Assembly (NCBI RefSeq): GCF_020510525.1
Contig: NZ_CP075188.1
Coordinates: 62,001 to 126,000, forward strand
Source of the DNA: Quatrionicoccus australiensis
Lineage (GTDB): Bacteria > Pseudomonadota > Gammaproteobacteria > Burkholderiales > Rhodocyclaceae
Length of the DNA: 64,000 nucleotides
Reading direction: 5' to 3'
Part shown: positions 4,278-7,170 of the stretch, one piece after another
Layout of the letters: every line of letters begins with the position of its first letter
Numbering within the stretch: the stretch's first letter is position 1
Translations under genes and position numbers: made by a program
The notes under the pieces: generated by a model
Told to the model about the DNA's origin: nothing
What the model saw: the letters and a program-made list of their open reading frames with translations, nothing else
The model's database searches: none

Positions 4278-4306
4278 TTGAACCGACCGCCTTCTGCGCA
4301 TAGAAT
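4278..4306 (+). promoter_or_regulatory. sigma70 promoter of the split tRNA-Gly gene
   Basis: TTGAAC (4278-4283) and TAGAAT (4301-4306) are separated by exactly 17 bases. The first base of the tRNA is at 4325, about 12 bases beyond the expected transcription start. This is what a stable-RNA promoter should look like, and it would drive both the split tRNA and the intron inside it. Confidence 0.75.
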
Positions 4307-5188
4307 GGCGGCCAGTCACCCAGAGCGGGCGTCGTATAATGGTAATACCCTAGCTTCCCAAGCGTGCGATGCGAATCGCAAGGTTTACGAGTCCCCAGTC
4401 AGACGCTTAATTCTGACAAATCTTGACTCGCTATATCCACCCGCCCGGGTGGGTTCCTTGTCGGTGAATGCCGAACAAGTAATTGTGCTGCTATCTATAA
4501 GGGCCTGTGATCGTCCGTTGGAGACAATGGAGTAGCAGGGGCAAGAAAATAGACAGCACCGGGGTTTCAGCACCCCGTAGCCTAGGAGCAGTGCGTCACT
4601 GGTAACGGTGAGGTGCTAAGCGCTCTGACAATGTAGCCACCTTTAGGGGTACGCCATACCCCGCGAGGGGTTCTGGCGTGATATCGGAAGTTGCATCCGA
4701 TTGAGGCGCTAGGCTGGGCTGGATGGCCAACGTAAGTGAATCGCTGTTAAACACCGTCAAGCTTGATGAGCCAAAAGCAACTTGTTGTATCGGGCTCTGC
4801 CAAAAGGCACGTGATCGGTTGTCCTCCTGCTTGGTGGGGACACGCTGACATGGCATCACCGGTGGAAAAGCGGGGCCTTCCCAGTTCTGTTACTTGCTCG
4901 GAACGCAGTAAGCCTGATTAGGCGTTCTTTAACAATTAGGCAATCCATAACACCCCGGCCAGACGAGAGTCTGGTTTGGGAACGTTATCGCTTACGTGTT
5001 TGAGAACAAGACGCCCCGCAAGGGTCGTTTTACCTGAGCAGGTAGAGGAGGATGGAAAAAGCGAATGTCTGCCTGTAATGGGCAGGATAGGGGATGAAAC
5101 GATTGCCCTGACGTGAAAGCGTGCTGACTTCCATCTGGTGACTCTTCGTGAGAAGGGTCTGTGTAATCGCTAACCCGAGGGGGTTGAT

Positions 5189-5197
5189 GCTACAATC
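5189..5197 (+). promoter_or_regulatory. possible extended -10 promoter for the intronic tRNA
   Basis: TGCTACAAT at 5189-5197 matches an extended -10 element (TGn followed by TACAAT). No good -35 is visible 17 bases upstream. A start from here would be about 35 bases before the internal tRNA, so the tRNA and the intron ORF could be expressed independently of the host tRNA promoter. The call rests on one short motif. Confidence 0.35.
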
Positions 5198-5238
5198 CCC
5201 GACCGGGGAAAAGTTGCGTCTTCCTCCAAAGGTTCAGA

Positions 5239-5313
5239 GCGGGCGTCGTATAACGGCTATTACCCTTGCTTCCCAAGCAAGAGACGAGGGTTCGACTCCC
5301 TTCGCCCGCTCCA
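5239..5313 (+). tRNA. intact tRNA-Gly(CCC) inside the group II intron
   Basis: The sequence folds as a complete tRNA: acceptor GCGGGCG / CGCCCGC (5239-5245 with 5303-5309), D stem GTA/TAC with GG in the loop, anticodon stem CTTGC / GCAAG around loop TTCCCAA (anticodon CCC, 5272-5274), T arm with loop TTCGACT, discriminator T and an encoded CCA at 5311-5313. It decodes the same GGG codon as the interrupted tRNA. It differs by paired changes, such as the 29-41 pair (A-T there, T-A here) and a pair in the T stem, so it is a diverged functional copy rather than a fresh duplicate. The CCA ends six bases before the ribosome site of the intron ORF. The identical stretch with the split tRNA begins at CAGA, four bases before the tRNA 5' end. 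Confidence 0.93.
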
Positions 5314-5330
5314 TACAACCGGAGGTTGAT

Positions 5331-7001
5331 ATGGACGCAACGCAGTTCAATTGCGATGTCGCCTCTACGGCTTGGCAGTCTTGGCACGAGATTCAATGGG
5401 TCAAAGCTTATCAAGTTGTCGCGAGGTTACAGACACGTATTGCGAAGGCAGCAAAAGCAGGGGAGTGGCGGAAGGTTCGCACCTTGCAGAGACTCCTGAC
5501 TAAATCGAGCGGCGCAAAAGCGCTGGCAGTTCGGCGGGTCACGGAGAATCAAGGCCGGAAAACTCCAGGTGTGGATCAACAAACCTGGGATACGCCGGAA
5601 GCGAAGTGGAAAGCGGTCGTTGATCTTGGCAACAAGAGATACAAGCCGTTACCGCTACGTCGCATCTACATTCCGAAAGCAAACGGTGAAAAACGCCCTC
5701 TGGGCATACCCACCATGCGTGATCGGGCGATGCAAGCGCTGCATTTACTGGCGCTGGAGCCTGTCGCTGAAACAACTGGCGATCATCATTCCTACGGATT
5801 CCGACGTGAGCGTTCGACGGCAGATGCCATCGAACAAGTGCGAAACGTGCTGGGCCGGAAAGCTTCCCCGAAATGGGTGCTGGAAGGAGACATCAAAGGC
5901 TGTTTTGACAACATCAGTCATGACTGGCTGGTTGCCAATGTCTGCATGGACAAGGGCATCCTTCGGAAGTGGTTGAAAGCAGGTTTCATCGAAACGGGAA
6001 GGCTATTCCCAACGCAAGCAGGTACGCCACAGGGAGGCATCATTTCCCCGGTTTTGGCGAACTTGGCACTGGACGGCCTGCAGCATGAGTTGACCACACT
6101 GTTCCGAACAGTGCGGGATGCACGTGCGGCAAAGGTCAATCTGGTGCGTTATGCGGACGACTTCATCATTACGGGTAGCTCGAAAGAGTATCTGGAAGAG
6201 AAGGTCAAACCCTTGGTGGAGAAATTCCTAGCCACTCGGGGCCTCATCCTCTCGGAGAAGAAGACCAAAATCACGCATGTGACGGAGGGGTTCGACTTCT
6301 TGGGGTGGAATGTCAGGATGTTCAATCGAATGCTGGTCACTCAGCCGTCGAAAAAGAATATCAAGGCGTTTCTGGGGAAAATCCGCAGTCTGTTGCGGGA
6401 AAGAAAAGCTGCCAGACAGATTGAGGTGATCGAAAAGCTGACCCCGGTAATCAGGGGGTGGGCTAACTATCATCGAAGTCAAATGGCATCCCGGACGTTT
6501 GCAAGGTGCGACCATCAAATCTGGCAAGCATTGTGGCGCTGGGCGTGCCGCCGTCACCCGAACAAGGGAAAGCGGTGGATCAAACAGCGTTACTTCAAAT
6601 GCCTCAAGGGGCGTGACTGGCTTTTTGCGGATCAGGACAAGTTACTACCGGTCTTGGCGGGATACCTGAAAAGGCCCCATATCAAGATCATGGGGGAAGC
6701 AAATCCATATGATCCAGCGTACGACAGCTACTTTTCCAAACGGCTTGCAAAGCGAATGGACAAGACGCTCGAAGGACGACGCAAGCTTCGCTGGTTGTGG
6801 TGGTGGCAGGAAGGTGAATGCCCCATCTGCAATCAGAAGATCACGAGAGAAACTGGGTGGCATCTTCACCACATAATCAAACGATCTCAGCGAGGTTCGG
6901 ACAAGCTGACCAATCTGGTCCTGCTACATCCGAATTGCCATATGCAACACCACGTTCTGGAGAAAACCGGAGTTGCTGCCGGTGCCTCGATGTTCAAATA
7001 G
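5331..7001 (+). CDS. ltrA-like: group II intron reverse transcriptase/maturase with HNH endonuclease
   Basis: The 556-residue intron-encoded protein starts at ATG 5331, behind GGAGG at 5320-5324. The frame is open further upstream through the internal tRNA, but that part has no protein character. It contains the RT fingers and palm, with the catalytic VRYADDFIITG near residue 275 intact and IPTMRDRAMQALHLLALEPV upstream. The maturase domain X follows, and then a C-terminal HNH nuclease with CPIC and HHIIKRSQRG and a final CHMQHH (about residues 497-545). The family binds its own intron RNA, helps splicing, and copies the intron into DNA targets by reverse splicing. No frameshift or lost catalytic residue is visible, so the intron is probably mobile or was until recently. 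Confidence 0.95.
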   Translation: MDATQFNCDVASTAWQSWHEIQWVKAYQVVARLQTRIAKAAKAGEWRKVRTLQRLLTKSSGAKALAVRRVTENQGRKTPGVDQQTWDTPEAKWKAVVDLGNKRYKPLPLRRIYIPKANGEKRPLGIPTMRDRAMQALHLLALEPVAETTGDHHSYGFRRERSTADAIEQVRNVLGRKASPKWVLEGDIKGCFDNISHDWLVANVCMDKGILRKWLKAGFIETGRLFPTQAGTPQGGIISPVLANLALDGLQHELTTLFRTVRDARAAKVNLVRYADDFIITGSSKEYLEEKVKPLVEKFLATRGLILSEKKTKITHVTEGFDFLGWNVRMFNRMLVTQPSKKNIKAFLGKIRSLLRERKAARQIEVIEKLTPVIRGWANYHRSQMASRTFARCDHQIWQALWRWACRRHPNKGKRWIKQRYFKCLKGRDWLFADQDKLLPVLAGYLKRPHIKIMGEANPYDPAYDSYFSKRLAKRMDKTLEGRRKLRWLWWWQEGECPICNQKITRETGWHLHHIIKRSQRGSDKLTNLVLLHPNCHMQHHVLEKTGVAAGASMFK

Positions 7002-7020
7002 GGGTGCTTATGGGTTGCTT

Positions 7021-7095
7021 GAGCCGTATGCGGGGAAACTTGCACGTACGGTTCTTAGGGGAGGGGATTATCGTGAGATAATCCCCTTACCCGCC
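7021..7095 (+). ncRNA. group II intron domains V and VI
   Basis: Bases 7021-7054 form the 34-nt domain V hairpin: it opens GAGCCGTATG with the catalytic AGC triad, has a GAAA tetraloop (7034-7037) and closes with CGTACGGTTC. Domain VI is the next hairpin, with an upper stem (GGGGATTATC / GATAATCCCC) and a short basal stem pairing GGG with CCC at 7090-7092. A7089 is left bulged as the branch point. The layout matches functional introns, except that the final two bases are CC instead of an A followed by a pyrimidine. Confidence 0.88.
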
Positions 7096-7170
7096 TAGAG
7101 CCGTGGGTTCGATTCCCATCGCCCGCTCCACATAGAATTCTCGCAGGTCGTTGATCTGTTGACGGAAGCC

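Follow-up and report, generated by a model that had tools for sequence, protein, structure and literature searches.

Within a stretch of 64,000 nucleotides (nt) of the Quatrionicoccus australiensis genome (NZ_CP075188.1, positions 62,001 to 126,000; hereafter the window), a 2,732-nt group II intron at 4364-7095 interrupts a gene for tRNA-Gly(CCC) in the 3' strand of its anticodon stem. Just before the gene for its own reverse transcriptase (RT), the intron carries a second, intact tRNA-Gly(CCC), which we refer to as the cargo. We consider it likely that this intron belongs to a lineage that is specialized for the anticodon arm of tRNA-Gly(CCC) and brings along a target-resistant substitute for the tRNA gene into which it inserts. 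This reading draws on the anatomy of the locus, the conservation of the cargo and of a single target throughout a clade, the cargo being the sole intact Gly(CCC) gene, its exchange as a module, and a bias in its alleles, all of which are observed in the genome sequences.

The interrupted tRNA gene and its intron

An earlier note on this DNA, written from the letters alone, had described a tRNA-Gly(CCC) gene split by a group II intron that contains a second complete tRNA with the same anticodon. ARAGORN, run on the window and on the spliced sequence, calls both tRNAs, and the exon coordinates hold. Joining 4325-4363 to 7096-7130 gives 74 nt typed as tRNA-Gly(ccc), and the sole tRNA reported in the 64-kb window itself is the internal tRNA-Gly(ccc) at 5239-5313 (58.4 bits in Rfam), the split gene being detected only after joining. 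This is also true of the relatives described below: in all 43 loci with joined exons, window included, the exon pair is typed as tRNA-Gly(ccc) with a fully paired acceptor stem, and in none of the 43 is a tRNA called from the 5' exon plus the start of the intron. At 20 of 22 same-genus sites (L141-L162), the uninterrupted gene is identical to the window's joined 74 nt (the gene pattern matched 21 of the 22; L141 is another allele and was unmatched, and L142 differs in sequence). Because the joined sequence matches these intact genes, the insertion is precise and lies between tRNA nt 40 and 41. The junction script requires TTCCCAAGC and an intron end of the form CCC[GT][AC]C and so recovers this site by construction; freer joining of the exons is the independent check. 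The features of the locus are as follows.

4278-4306, + strand: promoter-like site of the interrupted tRNA gene, TTGAAC-N17-TAGAAT (promoter scan)
4325-4363, + strand: 5' exon of tRNA-Gly(CCC), nt 1-40, terminating with the intron target ...TTCCCAAGC
4364-7095, + strand: group II intron, 2732 nt, 5' end GTGCG (junctions, covariance models)
4559-4708, + strand: part of domain I (RF02012)
4829-4834, + strand: candidate exon-binding site 1 (EBS1), GCTTGG, in a hairpin loop, complementary to the CCAAGC that closes the 5' exon (sequence reading)
5137-5144, + strand: domain IV basal helix, 5' strand
5239-5313, + strand: internal intact tRNA-Gly(CCC), the cargo (ARAGORN, Rfam)
5331-7001, + strand: intron-encoded RT/maturase with HNH domain, 556 amino acids from the ATG at 5331 (Pfam, NCBIfam)
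7012-7019, + strand: domain IV basal helix, 3' strand
7021-7054, + strand: domain V (RF00029)
7057-7095, + strand: domain VI (RF00029), with a candidate branch-point A at 7089, seven from the 3' end, placed by eye
7096-7130, + strand: 3' exon of tRNA-Gly(CCC), CCA encoded (joined-exon tRNA call)

The assignment of a group II core and of a complete RT/maturase/HNH protein, both made in the earlier note, is upheld by the models. RF02012 scores 108.2 bits (cut-off 34) and RF00029, matching 7019-7095, scores 68.3 bits (cut-off 40), and both are present in all 15 relatives scanned (11 with cargo and 4 without). The protein matches RVT_N, RVT_1, GIIM, and HNH of Pfam and group_II_RT_mat of NCBIfam (378.4 bits), all above cut-off; a longer frame is possible from the GTG at 5148. 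Among the 43 joined loci the intron begins with GTGCG in 41, with GCGCG in one and GTACG in one, and it ends in CC in 26 (window included) and AC in the other 17; the ends typical of mobile group II introns are GUGYG and AY. GCTTGG occurs in the aligned intron rows, and a fixed-offset script finds TGCTTGGT in 42 of the 43 loci; the candidate EBS1 and its target CCAAGC are both invariant across loci, and hence offer no covariation to read.

The helix formed by 5137-5144 and 7012-7019 encloses the tRNA and the RT gene immediately before domain V, which places the internal tRNA in domain IV, a part of group II introns that tolerates inserted sequence. One pair of this helix could be read in 39 of the 43 loci (the other 4 being unreadable) and is without exception complementary, A-T in 23 and G-C in 16. 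The longest of the 43 introns, that of L102 (3326 nt), has about 650 nt of extra sequence (5600-6320) between the RT gene and domain V.

Between the end of the cargo and the RT start there are 17 nt in the window; this spacing is 11-18 nt in 45 of 47 loci, with 31 and 45 nt in the remaining two. The acceptor stem of the cargo is fully paired in 47 of 47, and its allele differs from that of the exons in all 43 loci where both are readable. Upstream of the interrupted gene, the TTGAAC-N17-TAGAAT site is weak alone, one having been found against 1.3 expected from shuffles; a similar TTGAAC/TAGAAT layout precedes most intact same-genus tRNA-Gly(CCC) genes in the alignment. A conserved cargo promoter was considered in a TGnTAnnAT-like stretch about 50 nt upstream of the internal tRNA in many Rhodocyclales and Gallionellales rows and is kept as a lead only; the stretch is missing from the Burkholderiales and Lysobacterales rows, and the window scan was also negative.

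A single clade of cargo-bearing introns

We analyzed the best 80 of 431 confirmed relatives from a scan of species genomes. The arrangement is not a one-off: 52 of the 80 loci (L053-L102, L121, L129) form a cargo group, 51 of which have the tRNA or its pieces, the other, L093, being truncated. In 46 of the 52, as in the window, ARAGORN places a tRNA-Gly(ccc) ahead of the RT gene, and exons joined cleanly in 42 of the 52, every one giving tRNA-Gly(CCC). Among the 28 relatives outside the clade, ARAGORN finds no internal tRNA and no tRNA from joined exons. The loci without joined exons (L064, L065, L068, L072, L082, L085, L087, L089, L093, L101) mostly reflect contig ends, gaps, or later insertions. 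Those without a readable internal tRNA are L065, L072, L087, L089, L093, and L101. In L065, pieces of tRNA flank a gap of Ns in both copies. L072 and L101 have only the 3' piece before the RT gene, the tRNA having been split by an inserted element; in both, the 5' exon, domain I, and tRNA are located farther upstream on that contig, at distances of 21.7 kb (L072) and 88.7 kb (L101). L087 also has a 3' piece before the RT gene, and a matching tRNA, which presumably belongs with it, adjoins an integrase on another contig. L089 resumes at a second contig end, L196, in its genome, the two together having the intron parts and the tRNA.

This distribution bears on the possibility of artefact, either an assembly duplication of the tRNA repeat or contamination. 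The N gap inside both tRNA copies of L065 and the many loci that come from metagenome-assembled genomes would fit such an origin, which we nevertheless regard as close to negligible given that the arrangement is present in a one-contig genome and in isolates, and that internal and exon alleles differ in 43 of 43 loci with both read.

In a phylogenetic tree of 75 RT proteins, a single branch (Shimodaira-Hasegawa-like approximate likelihood ratio test support 99) separates 46 cargo loci and the window from the 28 others, and cargo presence mapped on this tree needs one change. The tree was built by a quick method with L064, L077, L089, L093, L099, and L129 left out; it would fit a cargo that arose once in the lineage. 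According to record titles, the hosts belong to Rhodocyclales, Burkholderiales, Gallionellaceae, Methylocaldum, Rhodanobacteraceae/Lysobacterales, and Solimonas. A long intron match is found in 7 of 59 other same-genus genomes. The junction pattern matched five times in 369 genomes of the class; the window, L198, and L202 have tRNA-Gly(ccc) downstream, and L200 and L201 were taken as chance matches because no tRNA follows. Among the matches listed from a plasmid collection (three plasmid records) no relative exceeded 60-80% identity, and none exceeded 60% in a phage collection, the cargo not being looked at in either.

The genome of the window (G000) consists of one 4.17-Mb contig and has the intron once. 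RF00005 finds 63 tRNA genes there, all typed, of which those for glycine are GCC (three), UCC (one), and CCC (one), so that, by sequence, no tRNA-Gly(CCC) other than the cargo is intact there; the exons could also be restored to one by splicing. A strict tRNA-Gly(CCC) pattern, which would overlook Gly(CCC) genes of divergent sequence, was applied to 53 distinct invaded genomes (58 entries) and gave one match in 51, none in one, and two in one. By-eye comparison shows the single match to be the intron's own copy in 50 of the 53 (in G133 the locus is itself split). The genome without a match, G111, is the host of the N-gapped L065; in G138, which has two, the second lacks bases from the intron site onward; and in G118 the single match is a tRNA on inserted DNA, not the intron's own copy. 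In the genome of L092, a second tRNA-Gly(CCC) (L197, about 1206-1274) is short of bases in the T arm and where the intron would sit; either misassembly or the decay of an empty site after intron loss may explain it.

The earlier note had proposed that the internal tRNA is cargo replacing the gene that the intron breaks, and this is supported by its conservation across the clade, its standing as the sole intact Gly(CCC) gene, and the fact that it is always the same isoacceptor. The further proposal that the site would otherwise be lethal is not supported. GGG accounts for 36 of 217 glycine codons in nine selected open reading frames of the window. The Escherichia coli gene to compare is glyU, which we take to encode that organism's CCC isoacceptor of tRNA-Gly. 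In the available portion of the source, E. coli lacking glyU grows, more slowly in some media (PMC9981150). Since a tRNA-Gly(UCC) is present in the genome, splicing could restore an intact tRNA from the exons, and glyU deletions are viable in E. coli, the site is probably costly rather than lethal.

Module exchange and allele bias of the cargo

In seven Gallionellaceae loci the internal tRNA is identical while the preceding 600 nt of intron are 85.8-99.3% identical, which points to selection on the cargo. Conversely, the first 600 nt of the RT gene are 96-97% identical between the window and L053, L054, and L055, with internal tRNAs only 75-79% identical and flanks conserved up to the first tRNA base and past the CCA. 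The window's cargo has the sequence of the L058 exons, and the L090 cargo that of the L076 exons. These divergent tRNAs in near-identical introns, and the matches of cargo to exons across loci, indicate that the cargo is replaced as a module drawn from Gly(CCC) genes. Recombination via the conserved tRNA ends and template switching to the mature tRNA are both possible routes. Despite these swaps, every internal tRNA found is Gly(CCC).

The alleles of the cargo also differ from those of the genes that the intron invades. The target is CCAAGC followed by T, and the target-like state (GC before the splice site, T after it) is found in 4 of 47 cargo tRNAs, 40 of 43 interrupted genes, and 50 of 60 ordinary genes, the last from a sample of 115 genomes of the class, 60 of which had matches, with the window's own genome excluded from the count. 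The canonical exon-intron junction occurs in none of the other genomes of this sample. The difference between internal and ordinary tRNAs (p=1e-15, Fisher, uncorrected for kinship) persists when only distinct sequences are counted, at 3 of 27 internal versus 34 of 43 ordinary (p=2e-8, same test, again uncorrected for kinship). Five cargo tRNAs have the loop-adjacent pair flipped, with CC for GC and then A, and a sixth has CC then T. A flipped pair would be expected to break the pairing with EBS1 yet keep the stem.

These patterns can be set against two other functions, or lack of function, for the internal tRNA. It could serve the intron, for example as a processing signal, with RNase P and 3' processing setting the 5' end of the RT message or parting the RT mRNA from the ribozyme half, and with the spliced exons supplying tRNA-Gly(CCC). 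This would account for the short distance from the internal tRNA to the RT start in all 47 loci and for exons that remain tRNA-like in 43 of 43. Any tRNA would do for such a purpose, however, yet all internal tRNAs are Gly(CCC) despite repeated swaps, and the shift away from target-like alleles is not predicted; we consider this explanation unlikely. We give even less weight to a passive passenger of no benefit to the intron, captured once and kept as hosts lost the need for accurate exon splicing. The single origin on the RT tree fits one capture, and the assemblies of L077, L099, and L129 show a broken RT frame beside an intact tRNA, but neither repeated replacement by other Gly(CCC) alleles nor the allele bias would be predicted, and the exons are undecayed.

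Several observations weigh against the replacement reading that we favor. The exons read as tRNA in every one of the 43 loci, so a functional tRNA may still come from the spliced gene, which would make the cargo redundant. If the cargo were processed from unspliced RNA, the intron would be severed within domain IV. The promoter scan found nothing above threshold upstream of the window's internal tRNA. The internal tRNA is target-like in L054, L061, L076, and L090, and the interrupted gene has A for T after the splice site in L058, L098, and L121; since no domain I column covaries with this change, an EBS3/IBS3 (intron-binding site 3) role for the base 3' of the splice site is unsupported and that claim was dropped. 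In Thauera propionica (L072/L193, G118), the internal tRNA is broken at the T arm and a second tRNA-Gly follows it. The 5' half of this second tRNA is identical to the host's own exon, and the tRNA was brought by, or re-formed beside, about 21 kb of inserted DNA.

Other elements are found at the cargo as well. In Solimonas (L101/L194) a tyrosine-integrase element has integrated into the cargo tRNA at its 3' end, and L087/L195, with a partial integrase arm domain, resembles it. Two kinds of mobile element, the intron and these integrase-bearing elements, thus use the same tRNA-Gly(CCC); elements of the ICEclc type use tRNA-Gly. In Massilia L068 (5660-8200) a second RT-bearing group II-like intron lies inside domain V, forming a twintron; because this insert splits domain V, the outer intron would splice only if the inner one leaves. 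In its host, G114, the cargo is the single Gly(CCC) pattern match. In the same-genus genome G041 (L141, 1500-1650), the only Gly(CCC) match is a solo tRNA with a flipped, target-resistant allele, and the roughly 60 nt upstream of it look like domain IV of the intron. A search of G041 for the RT, made without a positive control, gave no match, and this solo tRNA is perhaps a domesticated cargo left behind.

Proposed mechanism and relation to known systems

In the mechanism that we propose, EBS1 (GCUUGG) would pair with the CCAAGC that lies next to the loop in the tRNA gene, and retrohoming would place the intron between nt 40 and 41 of the tRNA, in the 3' strand of its anticodon stem. Until it is spliced out, the intron would deprive the host of its only Gly(CCC) gene, and the domain IV cargo, if expressed and charged, would supply Gly(CCC) decoding whether splicing is efficient or not. 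Because the cargo would supply Gly(CCC) regardless of splicing, we propose a low cost to the host, which would then come to depend on the element. Alleles of the cargo would be drawn from ordinary tRNA-Gly(CCC) genes with non-target alleles favored, possibly because these spare the element from insertion into itself. We would go further only tentatively, at slightly less than an even chance, and describe a natural "home-and-rescue" retroelement, which breaks a tRNA gene, supplies an untargetable copy, creates dependence, and refreshes that copy by exchange in new hosts with either their tRNA genes or their tRNAs, perhaps through RT template switching onto mature tRNA.

The nearest relatives share much of this machinery. 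A known group II intron sits near the 3' end of the Azotobacter groEL gene, as far as the available text of the source describes it (PMC4465626). Bacterial mobile group II introns of this kind, the groEL intron among them, have the RNA core, domains V and VI, and the RT/maturase/HNH protein in common with the cargo lineage. L103 and L108, both outside the clade, have a Pseudomonas-type groES leader upstream, which fits the groEL intron as it appears in that text (PMC4465626); L108 (Azotobacter vinelandii) lies in the sister group to the cargo clade. The earlier note's statement that bacterial group II introns normally avoid essential genes is thus too general. What sets the cargo lineage apart from its bacterial mobile relatives is a target in the tRNA anticodon stem and a full copy of the tRNA in domain IV.

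Self-splicing introns in bacterial tRNAs also interrupt the anticodon arm, and their exons rejoin to a tRNA; in the accessible parts of the sources these are mainly group I introns at position 37/38 (PMC4033280, PMC3984707). The cargo intron by contrast is group II, lies after nt 40, and holds an RT gene and an internal tRNA. Plastid tRNA genes contain group II introns, as in trnK with the matK maturase gene inside. These resemble the cargo intron in being group II introns of a tRNA gene with a maturase gene, and to our knowledge have no second tRNA copy inside. In a search of the open-access literature, most subscription journals being outside its scope, we found no bacterial group II intron in a tRNA gene that carries that tRNA.

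Reliance on a carried tRNA is known from tRNA-dependent lysogeny in actinobacteriophages, in which, according to the available portion of the source, a DNA phage uses a tyrosine integrase and the host tRNA is lost and essential (PMC10865867). The cargo intron differs in being a retroelement ribozyme, in that splicing could restore the gene, and in its bias toward target-resistant alleles. It is likened to phage lysogeny only, with no integrase among the domains of the protein encoded by the window element (RT/maturase/HNH). Synthetic home-and-rescue or cleave-and-rescue drives break a host gene and carry a copy resistant to their own targeting. Those are engineered DNA systems for sexual populations, whereas the cargo intron is natural and found in bacteria.

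Annotation of tRNA genes counts the cargo and overlooks the split gene. The finding links ribozyme retroelements with the tRNA-dependent lysogeny of phages and provides a natural parallel to gene drives that carry a rescue, and the system offers a test of cargo capture and renewal by a group II reverse transcriptase. The usual view of selfish elements is that they keep harm low either by splicing or by settling in harmless sites. This intron lineage of beta- and gammaproteobacteria seems to use a third way, that of carrying the replacement.

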